This document shows, piece by piece, positions 2,319 through 36,131 of a stretch of DNA of 41,562 nucleotides. The stretch spans positions 1 through 41,562 of IMG/VR virus record IMGVR_UViG_3300025141_000232; one strand, written 5' to 3'. The notes beneath the pieces were generated by a model. It had not been told where the DNA came from and ran no database searches. It saw only the letters and a list, made by a program, of their open reading frames with translations. Each line of letters opens with the position of its first letter. The stretch's first letter is position 1. The position numbers and the translations under genes are program-made. Origin of the DNA: a virus.

Positions 2319-3203
2319 TCAATCCATGGTCAAAGCGGGCAAATCCCCAAAGCGATAAATTAAATCATTTTTCCACTCGGCTCTTTCTTCTTTTGCTTCA
2401 GCAAGAAGGTTTTGTCCATCGAGTTGCATCCCGCCCCCCGGCCCCGGAGGTGCGGGATATTTGCTTCTAATTCTTCCGACGATTTCTTTGGCGTAGCTAA
2501 GAGCACCCTCTTGCATAGCCTGAGTTACTTCTTCCCAATCTTTATTTCTTTGCAAATAATGAACTAATATTTTCGATGACCTAGATGGTGTAGGATAGAC
2601 TTTAATATGTTTAAGACCTCCAATGAATTCCCATCCGCCGAGATTTGAGCTAACTCTTGAATACATTTGTTCATATTGTTTATATAAAACCCATTCGCCC
2701 ATTCTTCCCCAAATAGGTTGGATAGGGTCAATCAAGCCACCCTGAATAGATGCGTAAGCACCACCGGGGTAGAAATATTCAACTGGGATAGCTCCATCTA
2801 AGTCAGATGCTTGGAAGGCGAATGTTCCTTGTTCTTTATAGAACACATTTCTTACTATTCCCACATTAGGAGGTAATTCATATACACTTTTACCCGGAAC
2901 AGAATTCATTGCGTAATAATTGAAATACTCTCTTGGTGCATAATCTTCTAGAATTTTCAAAGATTGGTCAACACAGAAGTCTATATTTTGTTCATCTAAT
3001 TCTAGTTTTATTGCGGGTGCTCCCAACATATTCAAAATATAATCTCTTATTTGCATTCGGACTTTTTCTCTGTTTGGTCTTGGTCCTAATTCATTTTTAT
3101 TCAGAGGGTCTACAGGTCCAAGGTCTGAACATGATGAGGGACACTGAACAGATGTCATGGTGTTGTTAGACGGTCTTCCGATTGCTAAAGTATTATTGGC
3201 CAT
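2319..3203 (-). CDS. gp13-like neck / head-to-tail connector protein
   Basis: 294 residues. After a short Ser/Pro/Asn-rich N-terminus comes the segment RDYILNMLGAPAIKLELDEQ with a following Cys-Val-Asp helix, then YELPPNVGIVRNVFY. This resembles the LGAPVI...ID...A pattern of T4-type gp13 neck proteins of cyanophages. The C-terminus is a helical region rich in Glu and Arg with a Pro/Gly-rich loop (YPAPPGPGGG). In T4, gp13 with gp14 closes the filled head and joins it to the tail. The gene is transcribed away from the other virion genes and shares a 35-bp divergent intergenic region with the methyltransferase gene. The family assignment is by pattern memory and is moderate. Confidence 0.5.
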   Translation of the reverse strand: MANNTLAIGRPSNNTMTSVQCPSSCSDLGPVDPLNKNELGPRPNREKVRMQIRDYILNMLGAPAIKLELDEQNIDFCVDQSLKILEDYAPREYFNYYAMNSVPGKSVYELPPNVGIVRNVFYKEQGTFAFQASDLDGAIPVEYFYPGGAYASIQGGLIDPIQPIWGRMGEWVLYKQYEQMYSRVSSNLGGWEFIGGLKHIKVYPTPSRSSKILVHYLQRNKDWEEVTQAMQEGALSYAKEIVGRIRSKYPAPPGPGGGMQLDGQNLLAEAKEERAEWKNDLIYRFGDLPALTMD

Positions 3204-3238: not shown

Positions 3239-4216
3239 ATGGTTAAACAAGAAGTAATCCTTGGTGATTGTATGCAAATCATGTCTGAAATGGACCCGAA
3301 GAGCATAGATGTTGTAGTTTGTAGCCCTCCTTACAATTTGGGAAAAGACTACAAAACATATGAAGATAAGCTGCCTCGTCAAGAATATCTAGAATGGACA
3401 AGTAAATGGATGCAACTTGTAAAACAAGTCTTAAAGGATGATGGGTCTTTTTTCCTAAACATAGGGTTCACTAATAAAGACCCATGGTTAGGCATGGATG
3501 TAGCAACGGTAGCGAGAGAAATATTTATATTACAGAATAATATATCTTGGATTAAGTCTTTGTTTATAGACGGCAAGACGTTCGGGCATTTCAAACCCGT
3601 ACAGGGTGGAAGGTTCATTAATAATACATTTGAACACATTTTTCATTTTACAAAGGATGGTAATGTTAAAGTAAATAGATTAGGTATTGGTGTCCCTTAT
3701 AATGATAAGCTTAATGCCGAACGATGGAATAACGAAGGTGGTATAAGATGTCGTGGTAATTGTTGGTTTATTCCATATGAGACAATAATTAGAGAGGCGG
3801 AAACTGGTGTGTCTGAGGCAGAGGTAGAAAAAAGTTGGCTAACTGTTTCAGAGGCGGCAGAAAAAGCTAAAGTAAACAAAGCCATTATCACAATGGCGGC
3901 AAATGCTGGAAGGTTGATAAACAACGGGAAGAAAAGAAGAGAAAGACGGATTGACCCCGTAGATTTGGCGAGGTGGATGGAAGAGAGGTTTGCGCCAAAA
4001 AACGCTGACCATCCGGCAATATTTCCTTGGAAACTTCCAGAGATGTGCATCAAGTTACATGGTTTGAAGGAGGATATGGTTATATTGGACCCGTTCTTGG
4101 GTTGGGGAAACACTTTGATTGCATCTAAAAAGTTAGGTGTTAATGGGATTGGAATTGATGTTGACAAAGAATATGTAAAAGAAGCTAAAAGTCAAATAAA
4201 CAGCATACATATATGA
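3239..4216 (+). CDS. beta-class DNA methyltransferase with inserted helix-turn-helix
   Basis: 325 residues, starting at MVKQEVILGDCMQIM. The catalytic motif IV is CSPPYN (about residues 28-33) and the AdoMet-binding motif I, DPFLGWGNTL...GIGIDVDKEYV, is C-terminal. This order defines the beta class; SPPY favours an N4-cytosine or N6-adenine amino methyltransferase. Between them, where the target-recognition domain sits, is an excisionase-like helix-turn-helix: SWLTVSEAAEKAKVNKAII followed by RRIDPVDLARWMEERF. Such an insert is unusual and may add sequence recognition or regulation. No restriction endonuclease lies next to it, so it probably modifies phage DNA against host restriction. No ribosome site precedes the ATG; a CTATATTAT box does. 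Confidence 0.8.
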   Translation: MVKQEVILGDCMQIMSEMDPKSIDVVVCSPPYNLGKDYKTYEDKLPRQEYLEWTSKWMQLVKQVLKDDGSFFLNIGFTNKDPWLGMDVATVAREIFILQNNISWIKSLFIDGKTFGHFKPVQGGRFINNTFEHIFHFTKDGNVKVNRLGIGVPYNDKLNAERWNNEGGIRCRGNCWFIPYETIIREAETGVSEAEVEKSWLTVSEAAEKAKVNKAIITMAANAGRLINNGKKRRERRIDPVDLARWMEERFAPKNADHPAIFPWKLPEMCIKLHGLKEDMVILDPFLGWGNTLIASKKLGVNGIGIDVDKEYVKEAKSQINSIHI

Positions 4217-24205: not shown

Positions 24206-24766
24206 ATGAACGAAGATTTTATTATAGATAATTTATTAAAACCAAAAAAAAAGAAAAAGGTAAATTCTAACAAAAAAGGAAAAAGGAAAGAGCTTCAAGT
24301 TGTGGCTGCATTAAACAAACGTTTTGAAGAAATGTTATCAAAATTTCCTAGTTGGGGACAATTTTCTAGAACTGTTGCGTCTGGGGCAAGATGGGGCCAA
24401 AATGTTGTTTTACCACAACATGCAAAAGATACTTTTACCGGAGATTTAGTATGTCCATCGGGTGGTTTTAAATATGTAATTGAATCTAAAGGAGGCTATA
24501 ACGAAATAGATTTATGTTCTGTATTTAATGGAAAGTGCTCTCAATTAGATGGTTTTTTGTCTCAAGTACAAAAAGATGCAGAACGATGTGGAAGAAAACC
24601 ATTGTTATTATGGAAAAAAGACAGAAAACCAATGTTGTCTGTTGTAAAATATGAAGATGTAAAAAATTATGAATTTAAAATATACATGAAATATAACGAT
24701 TGGATAATTTTAGAATTTGATGATTTTTTTAAACTACCTGATAATTTCTTTTTTAAAAATGCCTAA
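24206..24766 (+). CDS. PD-(D/E)XK nuclease, resolvase-like
   Basis: 186 residues. After a Lys-rich start (KPKKKKKVNSNKKGKRKE) comes a helix, ALNKRFEEMLSKFPSWGQF, then RTVASGARWG. The catalytic core is FTGDLVCPSGGFKYVIESKG, where Asp, Glu and Lys (D-x17-ExK) form the PD-(D/E)XK site. This resembles phage and archaeal Holliday junction resolvase-like nucleases. It could process recombination or packaging intermediates with gp46/gp47. The mRNA is probably leaderless. The next HNH gene starts inside its last codons (8-nt overlap), consistent with insertion of a mobile endonuclease. Confidence 0.68.
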   Translation: MNEDFIIDNLLKPKKKKKVNSNKKGKRKELQVVAALNKRFEEMLSKFPSWGQFSRTVASGARWGQNVVLPQHAKDTFTGDLVCPSGGFKYVIESKGGYNEIDLCSVFNGKCSQLDGFLSQVQKDAERCGRKPLLLWKKDRKPMLSVVKYEDVKNYEFKIYMKYNDWIILEFDDFFKLPDNFFFKNA

Positions 24767-25952
24767 AAAATTAAAATATAATGATGTGAAAGAATATTTT
24801 GAAGAACAAGGATGTTTTCTTTTAGAAGATTCTTACATCAACGCCCACTACAAAATGAAATATAAATGTATTTGTGGAAATGATTCTGAAATTTCATGGA
24901 TGAAATTTAGAATCGGAAGAAGGTGCAAATCTTGTGCTGGCGTTAGAATATCTGAAAAAAAGAAATTTACTTTAGAACATGTTAAAAATATATTTAAACA
25001 ATCTAATTGTGAATTATTAGAAAAAAAATATAAAAATTCAAAACAATTATTGTTGTATAAATGTTCATGCGGAAATAAACATAAAATAAATCTTAATAAT
25101 TTTTCATCAGGGAAAAGATGTCCACATTGCGGATTAAAAAAAATAAAAGAAAAGCAAAAATTAAATTATAATTATGTTAAAAAATTTTTTGAATCTAAGG
25201 ATTGTGTTTTGCTTGAAAGTGAGTATATTAATTCACATTATAAAATGAGATATGTTTGTAGTTGTAAAAATAAAGCTGTTATTAATTGGAATTCATTTAG
25301 AAATGGTTCAAGATGTCGTGAATGTGGTAATAAAAAAATAAGTGAATCTAATAAAAAATATAATACAAAAATAGTTCAAAAAATATTCAAAAAAGACGGG
25401 TGTGAATTGCTTGGAGAGTTTAAGTCCACACATGTTCCTATGAAATATAAATGTTCTTGTAAAAGAATATCTCATGTGAGACTAAGCGATTTTCTAAAAG
25501 GAAATAGATGCAAATGTGGTTACAAAAAAAACTCTGGTTTAAATCACCCAAATTGGATTGTGGACCGTAAATTGAAAAAAGAAAATGATATGTTTAGGAA
25601 AAAATTATACAGTACGCTTAGTAGAACATTATGTGCCGTTGGGGATAAAAAAAATGAGAGTAGTAGAAAATTATTAGGATATACACCAAACGAATTAAGA
25701 TTACATATAATAAATCATTTGAATTGGGAAAATGTTCATAAAAGAAAATGGCATTTAGACCACATATTTCCTATAAAGGCGTTTTTAGACCACAATATAA
25801 AAGATATAAAAATAATAAACGCTCTTGACAATCTACAGCCACTAGAGCAAAAGGAAAATTTACGCAAATCAGACATTTATGACATTGATAAATTTAACAT
25901 TTGGATTAGTCAATTTGAAGTCCCTGTGATTCCAACCAATAAACATCATTAG
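24759..25952 (+). CDS. HNH endonuclease with zinc-ribbon repeats (paralog of 1072-2247)
   Basis: 397 residues from MPKKLKYNDVKEYFEEQGCF. Four repeats of about 65-70 residues carry CxC(G/K) and CxxC pairs (CICG/CKSC, CSCG/CPHC, CSCK/CREC, CSCK then CKCG). The C-terminal module has RKLLGYTPNELRLHI, KWHLDHIFPIKAFLDHNIKD and NALDNLQPLEQKEN, matching the paralog closely. The gene is more AT-rich than its neighbours. The start overlaps the preceding nuclease stop; an upstream ATG at 24717 is in frame but would overlap by 50 nt and lacks homology. Likely a freestanding homing-type endonuclease. Confidence 0.75.
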   Translation: MPKKLKYNDVKEYFEEQGCFLLEDSYINAHYKMKYKCICGNDSEISWMKFRIGRRCKSCAGVRISEKKKFTLEHVKNIFKQSNCELLEKKYKNSKQLLLYKCSCGNKHKINLNNFSSGKRCPHCGLKKIKEKQKLNYNYVKKFFESKDCVLLESEYINSHYKMRYVCSCKNKAVINWNSFRNGSRCRECGNKKISESNKKYNTKIVQKIFKKDGCELLGEFKSTHVPMKYKCSCKRISHVRLSDFLKGNRCKCGYKKNSGLNHPNWIVDRKLKKENDMFRKKLYSTLSRTLCAVGDKKNESSRKLLGYTPNELRLHIINHLNWENVHKRKWHLDHIFPIKAFLDHNIKDIKIINALDNLQPLEQKENLRKSDIYDIDKFNIWISQFEVPVIPTNKHH

Positions 25953-30331: not shown

Positions 30332-32971
30332 TTATCCGCATTTGCTCCAACCACACGAGCAGCCAATGCAGCCTTCATTTCTCATTAAATCATTTCCACC
30401 ACAATCCGGGCATTTTCCGTTTACTTTCGTTCCGTTCTTAATATACTTCTTCAAAGCACGAGAAATTGCCTTTGAAAGACAACACAAATCGCCTTCTGAT
30501 TTTTCTAACTGTTCTACGACATAAAGGATATCCGCTCCATGACGAAGAGATGTGGAGATGAGACGAGTAAAGATATCTTCTTCTTGCGTGGCATCTTTTG
30601 TTACATCATCAATCGTGAAACCATCTTCTTCAAATCGTAACGAATAAACGCCGCTTTTTATTTTCGAAATAGTCCCAACTACATTTTTCTTAGGAACAAA
30701 TCCATTTTCCATTACAAACACTTCATATGGGTCTCCCCCCAACAATCCAACCATGACTAGATAATCAAAAGTTCTCACCTTATCCAGCTTCTTAGTGACT
30801 TTAATGTGATGAATATCGCACTGAAGTACATGAGGTCTTATAGGTGCTTTTGTTTTAGAAATTTGTCCTCTATCAGCGGCATGAGGGCTAATTCCAAAAT
30901 ATTCTTCAAGCTGTGAGTGTTCTTTCTTAGTAAAGTTTTGGTCATGAATATTCAAGCCTTCTGATATCAGTTTAGTTGCAAGAGATTTAAAGGGGATATA
31001 AGAAATAATCCCGTACATCTTCTTATCTGGAAAGGCAGCGATACTTTTAACTTCTTTTTTATGAGCGGCAAGAATAAAATTATAAACATCACGCCATTTG
31101 GCATTTTCTGGCAACATATATGTCACAGAAATGGAAGAATCTATATGTTTCATTACTCGACCCATCAAATCTAGCTTGTCCATTGGTTTGACATGAGTAG
31201 AGCGATGGAAATTGATTCCTAATTTTTCCAAATTATTATCTATGAATTCGGCTACGGGTTTTCCACGTTTGCCATCCCATGTGTCTTTAATGGTATCGCT
31301 TGCGATGGGAATTTCTAAACCATGTTCTTTAAAAGCTTCTCGGACAACAGCAGGAACGCAGAAATAGTAATCATAATGACCAGCAATACGTGTTCTTTTC
31401 CAGAAGTAAATACCAAAAGCAGGCTCAATTCCATAAGATAAAACTAAATTTTTGAACATAAGAGACAACGTGCCTGTTGGTGCAATACTAGAGCAATTGC
31501 AATTTCGCATGGTTTTAAACTCTAAACCAAGCTTCATCATTCTTTTCACAAATGGAGAAGCTTCAAATTTTTCTCGATTGAATAATTCGAAGCTCCCTTT
31601 TTCTTTGCCTAATTCTATTGAAGATTTATAAAGATGATAATTATATCTCTTTGTGAATTCCGCAATAGCCTTATTGCCTTCAGGTGTTCCGTATTCAAGA
31701 CCTTGTTTGAACAACCACCCTGCAATGTTGGTGTATCCAGCACCAACACGTCTTAATTTTTCTATAGACATTTTTTGGAATGGTGTGGCGTAAGTTCCAG
31801 ATACAATTTCCATAGTGTTAACATTATCAAGAAATCTAACTAGAGATTCTCCTACTGTTTGAAGTTGTAGCTCATATTCTTTTGGATTAATGGAAAATGT
31901 TCCCACATTAGCCGATGATAACACACAAAGTGCATCTCTTGAAAGATACTGTTCTGAACAGGCATTTGTAGAAATGATTCTGCTGTCATATTCGTCCTTG
32001 GGGTCATAAACATAGTCTGAATTAGAATATTTTCTAGCTATGTCTATATTTTGTATTCCCGGCTCGGCACACTTGGACATATGTTTCGCTATAAGTTCAA
32101 GGAGATATCTGGCCTGAACTGTCTTGATAATCTTTTCTTCTTTTCGATTCTTACGAGCGAGATGATAATACTTTTTCTTTTTTTTATCATATAAAGAATC
32201 TTTATCTGTGCTGTGGACATCCAAATAAATTTTTTGTCCCTTTCTCACTTCTGGAATCGTAAATGTGAGTTGCCACTCTTTATCTTTATCTACCGCTTTG
32301 TAAAATGCCTCTGTGCAATGTACAGATATATTTGCATTTTGCATCTCTGTATTGCCATCCTTCATCTTAATAAACTCTTCAACATCAGGATGGTCACAAG
32401 AAAGAGAAAAGAGCATGGCTGGGACACGACCAAATTGACCAACATAATAACCAATTGAATCTATGAATTTCATCCAATGGGTAGCACCAGAACTGGTACT
32501 TGCAGAATTTTTAACACTTGTTCCTACAGGGCGTAGTCGAGAAAAATCAACACCTATTCCCTGACGAAATGCTGCGGCTTTAGCAACGGTATAAGCTGTA
32601 TTCTTTACAATACTTTCTAAATTATCCCATTCTTCGTCATCTCTTCCGCTACCCAAAGAGATGGTGGTGCAATTGCATAAAGAAACATTTTTCCCCGATG
32701 CTGCACCTTGCATGATGCTTCCTGCTGGGTGCCACCAATCTTTATAAATTTCATCAAACCAGCGATTAGACCAGTATTTTTTAAGTTCTGTTGTTTCTTC
32801 GGCAGAGGCAACAAAATCACATACTCTCTTTATTGCTTGAACGTAGGTTTCTCCTTCAAATAAGATATATTTGCTATTGAATGCATCTATGGCAAATTGA
32901 TTATCTTTGAAATATTCTTCGGTGGTTTGGTCTTTGACAGACTCATAAGTTACAACATTCTTCTCTTCCAT
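30332..32971 (-). CDS. nrdJ: adenosylcobalamin-dependent ribonucleotide reductase (class II)
   Basis: 879 residues. It has class II reductase landmarks in order: MQGAASGKNVSLCNCTT, FRQGIGVDFSRLRPVGTSVK, MQNANISVHCTEAFYKA, ISTNACSEQYLSRD (the active-site Cys-x-Glu), NCNCSSIAPTGTLSLM (the phosphate-binding loop). A C-terminal zinc-ribbon ends it, CPDCGG...GCIGCSCGWSKCG, whose Cys pairs probably re-reduce the active site. Class II enzymes make deoxynucleotides using coenzyme B12 and need no small subunit or oxygen, and no nrdB is seen here. It would supply DNA precursors together with dUTPase. No cobalamin riboswitch was visible upstream. No intein interrupts it, unlike its dut neighbour. Confidence 0.9.
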   Translation of the reverse strand: MEEKNVVTYESVKDQTTEEYFKDNQFAIDAFNSKYILFEGETYVQAIKRVCDFVASAEETTELKKYWSNRWFDEIYKDWWHPAGSIMQGAASGKNVSLCNCTTISLGSGRDDEEWDNLESIVKNTAYTVAKAAAFRQGIGVDFSRLRPVGTSVKNSASTSSGATHWMKFIDSIGYYVGQFGRVPAMLFSLSCDHPDVEEFIKMKDGNTEMQNANISVHCTEAFYKAVDKDKEWQLTFTIPEVRKGQKIYLDVHSTDKDSLYDKKKKKYYHLARKNRKEEKIIKTVQARYLLELIAKHMSKCAEPGIQNIDIARKYSNSDYVYDPKDEYDSRIISTNACSEQYLSRDALCVLSSANVGTFSINPKEYELQLQTVGESLVRFLDNVNTMEIVSGTYATPFQKMSIEKLRRVGAGYTNIAGWLFKQGLEYGTPEGNKAIAEFTKRYNYHLYKSSIELGKEKGSFELFNREKFEASPFVKRMMKLGLEFKTMRNCNCSSIAPTGTLSLMFKNLVLSYGIEPAFGIYFWKRTRIAGHYDYYFCVPAVVREAFKEHGLEIPIASDTIKDTWDGKRGKPVAEFIDNNLEKLGINFHRSTHVKPMDKLDLMGRVMKHIDSSISVTYMLPENAKWRDVYNFILAAHKKEVKSIAAFPDKKMYGIISYIPFKSLATKLISEGLNIHDQNFTKKEHSQLEEYFGISPHAADRGQISKTKAPIRPHVLQCDIHHIKVTKKLDKVRTFDYLVMVGLLGGDPYEVFVMENGFVPKKNVVGTISKIKSGVYSLRFEEDGFTIDDVTKDATQEEDIFTRLISTSLRHGADILYVVEQLEKSEGDLCCLSKAISRALKKYIKNGTKVNGKCPDCGGNDLMRNEGCIGCSCGWSKCG

Positions 32972-33044
32972 CAGGTCTTCTTTCTTTTCTACGCTCAGGT
33001 TAATGAACTGCCGTGCAAACTTTCAAATCATTTTATCTAACGAT

Positions 33045-33050
33045 ATTATA
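33045..33050 (-). promoter_or_regulatory. possible promoter -10 box before nrdJ
   Basis: On the minus strand TATAAT lies 73 nt above the nrdJ ATG in the 116-bp gap after gp46. A weak -35 (TTTATT) is 17 nt further up. The leader also holds ATTTGAAAGT, which is complementary to the last bases of the gp46 gene. Tentative. Confidence 0.3.
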
Positions 33051-33087
33051 TCAAAAAAATTTATATAAATAAACTATTAATTTTTAA

Positions 33088-35067
33088 TTATTTGAAAGTT
33101 GTAAATTCGTTTTTTCTTTCCAAATTAATAGAATCACAATCGCCTAATGATTCTAATAAATCACGGTCATGAGTAGTGACAAACACCTTTTTATTCTTAG
33201 ATAACTGCATAATCATGTTGTATACATTCTCTACACCTAACGGGTCTATGTTAGTTGTAACTTCATCTAAAAACAAAATAGAAGACGATGCCCCAGAATC
33301 TATTGTCATTATGTGAGCAAATGCTTGGGATACAGCAAGATTAAGTCGTCTTCGTTCGCCGCCCGACAGGTTATGATAATCAAACGATTCGCTTTCAGTA
33401 GGAACTCTACTAATTGTTTCATCAAATTCATTATTGAATTCTAATTTTATTTTTCCGTCAATGAGGAATTGAAGCCAATAAGAAATTCGGGAATTTAATG
33501 CTGGAATTATTCCATCAATAATAAACTTTCGTATTCCGTTGTCCCCGAAAGCTTTAACCCAAAATTCATAATAAGGTAAATTTTGTTCAGATTTCTCTAA
33601 TTCAGTCTTCTTATCTTTACATTCAATTTCCTTCTCCTCTTTTTCTTTAACAGATAATAAGCTTATCTCTGTATATGGGGAGGTTTCTTCCTTTTTAGCC
33701 AGTGCTTGTTTTTTGAGACTTTCGATATCGTTATTAAGAATCTTATCATCAGAATCGGCATCGGGTTTGTTAATCTTAGACAACCGAGACATATTAAAAG
33801 TGACGCTCGTAATTCTCTTAGAATTGTTTAAAGATTTATTTGAGGCTAATTCAACAGCTTCGTATAACTTTTTTATTTTTGAATTTATCGGGACAAGAAG
33901 AGCTAATTTTTCTTCGGCTATCAATTTTTGAGCTTCTAATTTTGCTTCTTCATCATTAATATTGTTTTTAGATTCTATTATGACATGTTCATAGTTTTCT
34001 TTTTTAACAATTCCAAGGCACGTTGGGCATTTTTTGCCTTCTTTATTTTCATAATCAGATATTGTTTTTTTATTCTTACTAATTGTAGCTGAGAGGTTTG
34101 TTATATTGGCTTGTGCTGTCTTTAAGACAGAATCCAATTCAGCTTTCTTAACAACCTCTTCATCTAGTTGTTTGTTAATCTTTTCTTTTATTTTGTTTAT
34201 TTGTTCAATCTCAGATTGGAGTTGAGACATTTTTTCTTTTAATTCTTTTAGTTCTTCCTGTGCTTCATTGTACTTAATAAGAGCCGCTCCAGAATTACTA
34301 TTCCTGAGAGATATAGTTTTAGTTTTAATAATATTGACTAATTCAGAAAGCTCTTCTTCTTTGTTGTTTTTCCACTCTTCTTCTTGTTGTTTTATTTTAT
34401 TGATTCTAATTTCACATGAATTTAATTGGGCAAGAATATTAGAATATTGTTCAGAAATTAGATTTATTTTTTCTTTGTATTTGTTTTTTATCTTTTTAGC
34501 TTTTTCTGAATATTCTCGGTAAGAACCTAGAGATAACAAATTATCAATAATTTGTCTTTTTGTTGGAGTATCACACTCAAGAAAACATCCGCTGTTGTTG
34601 TCTCTGAATATTACAGTGTTGACAAACGTTTCATATGAAAGGCCAATAATATCTTGAATCGCCTTCTGTGTCTCTGTCATACTCCCACGAGTCTTTTCGT
34701 TATTTTCATCCCATATATGGTCTTCGCTTTCCCATAATTTAAGCTTGTTGGGTTTTCTGCTCCGAACTATTCGGTAGTTGTTCCATATAATTTCTACTTC
34801 TAGATTCTTACATACTTTAAGATTGATTATCTTATCATTTGTAAGTTTTTTAATAGTTTTACCATACAAAGCATAAACAAGTATTTCAGGAATACTTGAT
34901 TTTCCAACTCCATTTGAAGATGCATTTCCCTCATCATCTAAAATATCTTTATTTTTGCCACGAACAAGAATTATGTTACCGTATGATGTTAAATCAATCT
35001 CGATTCCCTCTGGGCCAAAACACAGGAAATTCTTTGCACGAACATATCGAAAATCTAAGTTCTTCAT
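33088..35067 (-). CDS. gp46: recombination endonuclease ATPase subunit (gp46 / SbcC / Rad50-like)
   Basis: 659 residues. Walker A is NGVGKSS at about residues 52-58. A long coiled coil follows, broken by a zinc-hook CPTCLG that joins two molecules. The C-terminal lobe has the ABC signature LSGGERRRLNLAVSQAF and Walker B ILFLDEVTTNID, ending with TTHDRDLL. In T4, gp46 with gp47 resects DNA ends to start recombination-dependent replication. The length is close to T4 gp46 (560) with a longer coil. Its start overlaps the gp47 stop (1 nt shared at 35067), so the two are translated together. Confidence 0.93.
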   Translation of the reverse strand: MKNLDFRYVRAKNFLCFGPEGIEIDLTSYGNIILVRGKNKDILDDEGNASSNGVGKSSIPEILVYALYGKTIKKLTNDKIINLKVCKNLEVEIIWNNYRIVRSRKPNKLKLWESEDHIWDENNEKTRGSMTETQKAIQDIIGLSYETFVNTVIFRDNNSGCFLECDTPTKRQIIDNLLSLGSYREYSEKAKKIKNKYKEKINLISEQYSNILAQLNSCEIRINKIKQQEEEWKNNKEEELSELVNIIKTKTISLRNSNSGAALIKYNEAQEELKELKEKMSQLQSEIEQINKIKEKINKQLDEEVVKKAELDSVLKTAQANITNLSATISKNKKTISDYENKEGKKCPTCLGIVKKENYEHVIIESKNNINDEEAKLEAQKLIAEEKLALLVPINSKIKKLYEAVELASNKSLNNSKRITSVTFNMSRLSKINKPDADSDDKILNNDIESLKKQALAKKEETSPYTEISLLSVKEKEEKEIECKDKKTELEKSEQNLPYYEFWVKAFGDNGIRKFIIDGIIPALNSRISYWLQFLIDGKIKLEFNNEFDETISRVPTESESFDYHNLSGGERRRLNLAVSQAFAHIMTIDSGASSSILFLDEVTTNIDPLGVENVYNMIMQLSKNKKVFVTTHDRDLLESLGDCDSINLERKNEFTTFK

Positions 35068-36131
35068 TAAAGTTCCTTATTTTTTATATTACGTCCTATT
35101 GTTAGCAATTTCTCTTTATTAAGACCATCAAGAGAATCTGCCTCATTTTTAATTTCAATATACTTTTCTAACATCTCTGATTCTTTGAAGAGAATAGCCT
35201 TAGCATTATCCACAAGGTCTTCCTCTTCTTCCTTTTCAACCTGTTTGAATTCAAGAGTCCCCACCTTGTTATTGTTTAATATTTCATTTCTTAATTCTAC
35301 GATATCGGAAGACGCTAAATCTTCCATGATAATTTGAATAAAATTATCATTTAAGTCGTATTTGTCTATATCTTTCTGAGGTACGATAAAGTGTTGGGGA
35401 CTAAAATTATTTCTTACATATTCTTTTTCTTGTGTTTCTAAGTCGTATACAAGTATCTCTTTATGAGTAAAAGCTTCTCCAAAACTCAATTGAAGTGGTG
35501 AGCCAATATATTCAATATTTGGCTTGATGATTTGTTTGGCATGATAATGCCCAAGAAATACTTGATCCCAATCTTTGAAAATCTCCGGGGACATTTTGCT
35601 CATGTATCCATCGTGTTCTACAGATACATTAGAATGAACGCCGCCCATAACATTAAGTAATGCTCCATCTATAGCACAATGACCACATAATATTTTATGC
35701 TTAGAATCATTATGGATATCAACAATGTCCTCTGCGGGGTCAGATGTGTATGGGAGAAAACTAATTGGATATTCGCCCACTTGTAAAGTACAAGGACGGT
35801 TGATAACAGTGGCATTAGGGAGACTTCGAAGAGGATATACGCTACTTACATCCCATTTGTTTAGATGCCATATATCATGATTTCCCAATAAAAAATAAAC
35901 ATTTACTGACCCATCCATATACTTTTCAAATATTTCGAAAGATTTTTGATAAGTGTATACGTCTATTTTTTGTTTTTCATGAAATAAATCCCCGAGAAGC
36001 AAAATATGTTTAATTTGCTTTTCTTTTGCCGTTTCAAATATCCAAGATAAAACATCTAAACAATTTTGAAGACGACTATAACTCTTTTTATGGGGATACA
36101 GATGTAAATCAGAAGATAACAATACTTTCAT
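35067..36131 (-). CDS. gp47: recombination endonuclease nuclease subunit (gp47 / SbcD / Mre11-like)
   Basis: 354 residues. Metallophosphoesterase motifs appear in order: SSDLHLYPHKKS (D8, H10), LLGDLFHEKQK (D48), LLGNHDIWHL (N84-H85), LCGHCAIDGALLN and FLGHYHAKQ. These bind two metal ions and cut DNA ends in complex with gp46. The C-terminal 110 residues are helical and acidic, the usual partner-binding part. The ribosome site AGAGG lies at the foot of an 11-bp hairpin (36139-36163), which may limit translation. Confidence 0.93.
   Translation of the reverse strand: MKVLLSSDLHLYPHKKSYSRLQNCLDVLSWIFETAKEKQIKHILLLGDLFHEKQKIDVYTYQKSFEIFEKYMDGSVNVYFLLGNHDIWHLNKWDVSSVYPLRSLPNATVINRPCTLQVGEYPISFLPYTSDPAEDIVDIHNDSKHKILCGHCAIDGALLNVMGGVHSNVSVEHDGYMSKMSPEIFKDWDQVFLGHYHAKQIIKPNIEYIGSPLQLSFGEAFTHKEILVYDLETQEKEYVRNNFSPQHFIVPQKDIDKYDLNDNFIQIIMEDLASSDIVELRNEILNNNKVGTLEFKQVEKEEEEDLVDNAKAILFKESEMLEKYIEIKNEADSLDGLNKEKLLTIGRNIKNKEL

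Follow-up and report, generated by a model that had tools for sequence, protein, structure and literature searches.

Variation among beta-class DNA methyltransferases is believed to lie chiefly in the recognition region. The enzymes grouped in family PF01555, such as M.BceJIV, CcrM, M.MboIIA, M.RsrI and M.PvuII, have the same catalytic fold as the enzyme described here, with motif IV placed before motif I and a short recognition region before motif X. In CcrM, the loop designated Loop-6E (residues 172-194) carries Thr191 and Lys193, which touch the target adenine, and Arg179 and Lys187, which touch backbone phosphates beside the site (PMC6787082). Helix-turn-helix (HTH) domains have also been described in methyltransferases. 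According to an AlphaFold2 model, the catalytic halves of M.EcoGII are separated by one (residues 160-237), and M.PflMI has a similar overall predicted structure (PMC11551740). In M.SsoII a methyltransferase is joined to a regulatory DNA-binding domain that was modelled on the phage 434 repressor (PMC3978073).

The window studied here, that is, the whole 41,562-nucleotide stretch of viral DNA in IMG/VR record IMGVR_UViG_3300025141_000232, encodes a beta-class methyltransferase into which an HTH domain of a different type appears to have been inserted. The features of the locus and of its surroundings are listed in Table 1.

Table 1. Methyltransferase locus of the window, with further features of the same record
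Feature	Position	Strand	Residues	Remarks
Endonuclease VII/HNH-like protein	187-1065	minus		PHROG 2340, 6.2e-14
HNH-type endonuclease	1072-2289	minus		Repeated CxC-type modules (PHROG 559/681)
Head-tail adaptor gene	2319-3203	minus		Divergent from methyltransferase gene
Gap between divergent start codons	3204-3238			35 bases, head-tail adaptor vs methyltransferase
Beta-class amino-DNA-methyltransferase CDS	3239-4216	plus	1-325	325 aa; motif order IV ... I; PF01555, E 2.3e-42
Catalytic motif IV, SPPY	3323-3334	plus	29-32	
Family recognition-region segment, RGNCWFIPYET	3752-3784	plus	172-182	Retained
Lineage-specific insert	3788-4009	plus	184-257	From alignments; matches AlphaFold2 low-confidence segment 182-256 almost exactly
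N-terminal linker of insert	3788-3832	plus	184-198	Net charge -3
MerR/excisionase-type HTH with wing (HTH_17)	3833-3991	plus	199-251	Net charge +5; from profile matches
Basic wing, GKKRRERR	3926-3949	plus	230-237	Identical in L003
Motif-X-like HPAIFP	4010-4027	plus	258-263	Counterpart of CcrM HPTQKP
Motif I, DPFLGWG	4088-4108	plus	284-290	
HNH-type endonuclease	24717-25952	plus		Repeated CxC-type modules (PHROG 559/681)
Ribonucleotide reductase large subunit and SbcC/SbcD-like nuclease genes	30332-36131	minus		Record also has a tail gene block

The assignment to the beta class rests on the position of motif IV before the AdoMet motif I, on a PF01555 score of 145.9 bits, far over the cut-off of 26.7, and on the modelled fold of the core, which matched M.BceJIV (Z 28.4, rmsd 2.5, 242 aligned residues) and CcrM (Z 26.6, rmsd 2.0, 220 aligned). 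The ATG at 3239 was favoured over a TTG at 3182 as start codon because the relative encoded by contig L003 begins at the equivalent ATG. Across 36 sequences S29, P30 and Y32 of motif IV are invariant and P31 is kept in at least 90%; motif I is directly followed by N, as it also is in relatives L119, L173 and L190. The catalytic motifs are intact, as an earlier note on this DNA had held. Alignments showed that the family has a constant layout, with the recognition segment RGNxWFIPYET followed by a loop, by HPAxFP and then by motif I.

In the window protein 78 residues separate the W-x-I-P motif from HPA, against a mode of 12 in the family, and profile searches point to a complete HTH within the additional residues. 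When the 60 residues of the region were searched in isolation, positions 1-50 of the 51 of HTH_17 were matched at E 1.7e-5 with 25.4 bits, the curated cut-off being 27 bits; in the L003 relative the corresponding residues scored 26.1 bits (E 1e-5) against that cut-off. Independent profile libraries were in agreement, the segment being matched also by the PHROG 66 excisionase/transcriptional regulator family (E 3.5e-5) and, below cut-off, by the TIGR01764 excisionase model (0.0023). Nine shuffled versions of the window segment gave no HTH family match, although one of them produced two unrelated weak matches. HTH_17 domains usually stand alone or at the N-terminus of proteins. The likeness to this MerR/excisionase family is that of a whole-domain match (E 1e-5 to 1.7e-5), but here the domain sits inside an enzyme and scores just below the Pfam cut-off. 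These results bear out the earlier proposal of an HTH between motifs IV and I. Its exact placement had to be corrected, since the note had put the domain inside the target-recognition region and the predicted HTH lies behind the family segment, between RGNCWFIPYET and the motif-X-like HPAIFP, and not within that segment.

The segment could have been the ordinary recognition domain of this subfamily, and homologs were compared with this in mind. The set was drawn from viral, genome and phage collections at E <=1e-50, with weaker matches left out and identical sequences merged. Among the resulting 152 distinct homologs the W-x-I-P-to-HPA spacing was 12 residues in 121, between 0 and 26 in 149, and 78 in three, so that the segment is absent from 149 of the 152 and that explanation was ruled out, the opposite of the outcome that the earlier note had named as refuting its view. 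The three 78-residue proteins all belong to this phage lineage, namely the window protein (identical in L001) and those of L002 and L003. In a tree of 107 sequences built from shared columns the three group together with support of 1.0, the insert-less L039 is their sister with support of 0.81, and both fall within a clade of 77 that is otherwise insert-less. The nesting of the insert-bearing clade among insert-less enzymes indicates that the HTH domain is a gain of this lineage. The earlier suggestion of a newly acquired recognition domain is thus supported as to the gain of a domain only; retention of the native recognition segment makes the insert an addition and not a replacement.

Other carriers of the insert were looked for in the viral collection with strict DNA patterns built on the two flanking motifs, a design that misses variants. 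With the motifs 72-82 residues apart, these patterns returned the three known contigs only; at 62-72 residues there was no match, and at 82-92 a single chance match in a non-methylase frame. The insert alone as query again returned the three known contigs, with nothing convincing among phage records (best E 2) and no match among solved structures at E <=5. As for a donor, none was found: across the window, the relative of 225 kb and the record of 18 kb, nothing but the insert matched HTH_17 at E <=0.1.

A recently acquired segment of this kind might be neutral or even harmful, for instance the remains of a mobile DNA-binding module, in an enzyme that is decaying. In the window the insert has a G+C content of 46%, whereas the parts before and after it have 35.5% and 36%, and HNH endonucleases, which are typical of mobile elements, are encoded nearby. 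However, the L003 copy of the insert has only 39.6% G+C, the frame is open, and the insert and its synteny persist between the window and L003 at 90% protein identity. In the comparison of these two sequences dN/dS is about 0.06 for the insert (dN 0.050, dS 0.835), about 0.07 for the part of the enzyme before it (dN 0.057, dS 0.794) and about 0.04 for the part after it (dN 0.041, dS 0.954). By this measure purifying selection acts on the insert as it does on the enzyme, and both are being preserved, which leaves decay a very improbable explanation.

With 36 sequences AlphaFold2 modelled the catalytic core well (pLDDT mostly above 90), but residues 182-256 stayed below 50, so that the model gives neither the fold nor the orientation of the insert. 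A poor single-sequence prediction (mean pLDDT 39.5) has helices at 203-209, 214-228 and 240-251, which follow one another as expected. The place of the insert can nevertheless be approached through CcrM, in which HPTQKP ends Loop-6E. This motif was paired with HPAIFP by motif, the printed alignment being off there by a few residues, and its CcrM numbering uses the offset that places Thr191 and Lys193 within it. As HPAIFP is the counterpart of the motif that ends Loop-6E, the insert would hang from a DNA-facing loop adjoining the active site; by homology, then, it is placed in the equivalent of Loop-6E, near the active site.

The reading that is favoured, at about an even chance, is that the insert works as an accessory DNA-contact module, through which an orphan phage methylase would bind more tightly or cover a longer footprint. 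According to this proposal, a beta-class amino-methyltransferase, presumably active on N6 of adenine or N4 of cytosine, of a large tailed phage would have acquired a complete MerR/excisionase-type winged HTH in the loop that leads from the recognition region to motif X. Choice of the base for methylation would still fall to the native recognition segment, while the basic wing would touch flanking DNA at a second place, in part electrostatically, and this contact may raise affinity or processivity or else extend the recognised site. The HTH domain and its wing segment have net charges of +5 and +6, respectively, but the putative recognition helix, NKAIITMAANAG, has few polar side chains and would fit non-specific contact better than the reading of bases. 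It is this combination of charge with a polar-poor helix that favours an accessory grip over a change of specificity.

A change of specificity is nonetheless a possible, if doubtful, alternative. In that case the HTH would read bases beside the core site, altering or lengthening the target, and only a subset of the ancestral sites would be methylated. The location of the insert, behind the native recognition segment and in a loop equivalent to Loop-6E, would agree with this, and so would part of the site statistics. RsaI cuts GTAC, and this sequence was taken as candidate ancestral site because a relative adjoins a gene annotated as R.RsaI endonuclease. Strong depletion of GTAC is seen in stretches of two contigs that lack the insert, that of L021 (G005; 18 seen vs 196 expected) and that of L040 (G006; 4 vs 172), and only mild depletion in the insert-bearing lineage (57 seen vs 72 expected; 173 vs 247). 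The depletion does not track the insert cleanly, however, since two other insert-less relatives show it to a mild or moderate degree (95 seen vs 146 expected; 38 vs 76). Moreover, an RsaI-like nuclease acts as confounder: it is encoded in three of the six records that lack the insert but in none of the three that carry it (the 41.6 kb window, 225 kb and 18 kb, possibly fragments), and of the two strongly depleted contigs G005 has the gene, while in G006 it was not found. Loss of a partner nuclease in the lineage would agree with the GTAC and nuclease pattern, which does not in itself identify the target of the enzyme.

Strong avoidance of the restriction type was also observed in the insert lineage for two other sequences. 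GATC is almost absent (4 seen vs 115 expected in the window; 0 vs 316 in the 111 kb sampled from the L003 contig, stretches L210-L214 and L003) and CGCG is missing (0 vs 18 in the window; 0 vs 68 in the L003 contig stretches). In four insert-less relatives GATC occurs at 0.3-0.97 of expectation. Its near-absence in the insert lineage makes GATC implausible as the main target of the enzyme. Despite the lack of GATC in the 111 kb sampled, the 225 kb relative that carries L003 encodes a second methyltransferase, of the D12 (Dam-like) type (G001:C1:107061-107759).

The gene occupies the same place in the window, L003 and, judged from ORF coordinates and lengths alone, L002: it is divergent from the head-tail adaptor gene and adjoins the gene of an 835-residue protein. 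An HNH endonuclease gene, the first of the two in Table 1, adjoins the locus in the window; no ORF of similar length is seen there in L003, which suggests a mobile gene.

This arrangement, with just 35 bases between the divergent start codons, invites the idea that through its HTH the enzyme also controls transcription, perhaps from its own divergent promoter, as M.SsoII would; HTH-bearing regulatory methyltransferases such as M.SsoII do exist (PMC3978073). Yet the M.SsoII domain is a flexibly tethered N-terminal extension, whereas here the domain is pinned in the catalytic fold beside motif X. In addition, no adjacent restriction gene of the RsaI-like type, which was the type looked for, is present to be controlled, and by eye the intergenic gap is conserved no better than its surroundings. 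A regulatory role is considered unlikely.

The position of the gene among head-tail and tail genes is also relevant to a further alternative, in which the domain would serve protein contact, either in dimerisation or in docking to the packaging or replication machinery of the phage. A weak match of the HTH segment to PHROG 57, a small terminase family (0.0031), points in that direction, and structurally characterised beta-class enzymes form dimers (PMC6787082). The basic wing seems better suited to DNA than to protein, and this role is rated slightly lower still than a regulatory one. Accessory DNA contact is hence preferred over altered specificity, transcriptional control, protein contact and decay, in that order.

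A more speculative extension, which is improbable, views the protein as a two-part writer, with the inserted winged HTH aiming the methylase at particular places of the phage genome, such as an operator or a packaging-type site, where methylation would be a local signal and not blanket protection. If true, it would mean that a new specificity was bolted onto a beta-class methyltransferase through Loop-6E while leaving the native recognition segment untouched. Winged-helix domains are known to sense adenine methylation in restriction enzymes (PMC11037411); a methylation-reading role of the insert was considered beside that case and set aside. More generally, the clean and recent acquisition of an entire predicted DNA-binding domain at a single loop, conserved since and open to comparison with relatives of about 50% identity that lack it, offers a natural experiment on how the specificity or processivity of methylases evolves, and the insert site marks a tolerated insertion point for engineered fusions.

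Among the known systems, the aligned PF01555 homologs outside this lineage, 149 of the 152, have no more than 26 residues where the insert sits. The cyanophage Syn19 methyltransferase, with 48% identity over 76% of the query, has the same recognition segment, but it is without the insert and is adjoined by a gene annotated as R.RsaI endonuclease, a pairing of which no RsaI-like counterpart was seen in the three insert-bearing, possibly fragmentary, records. CcrM has an extra DNA-binding domain of its own that is C-terminal (PMC6787082), whereas the one found here is an internal insert. M.SsoII belongs to the C5-cytosine class and carries its domain N-terminally on a flexible linker, in contrast with the amino-methyltransferase of the window, in which motif IV already starts at residue 29 and the HTH is internal.

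No report of an HTH inserted in a beta-class methyltransferase was found in the open-access literature searched, in which M.EcoGII came nearest, and the portions available of PMC2890505, PMC12376442 and PMC7824862 contain no closer case. M.EcoGII and M.PflMI are of the beta class, like the window enzyme. The four-helix HTH bundle of M.EcoGII is set apart as being the recognition domain itself, while the window enzyme still has RGNxWFIPYET and carries a MerR/excisionase-type domain in addition, behind that segment. An HTH recognition domain in a beta-class enzyme (M.EcoGII, by prediction) and an HTH fusion (M.SsoII) were already known. What is new here is the MerR/excisionase type of the domain, its location following a native recognition segment that is still intact, and its clean, recent gain.
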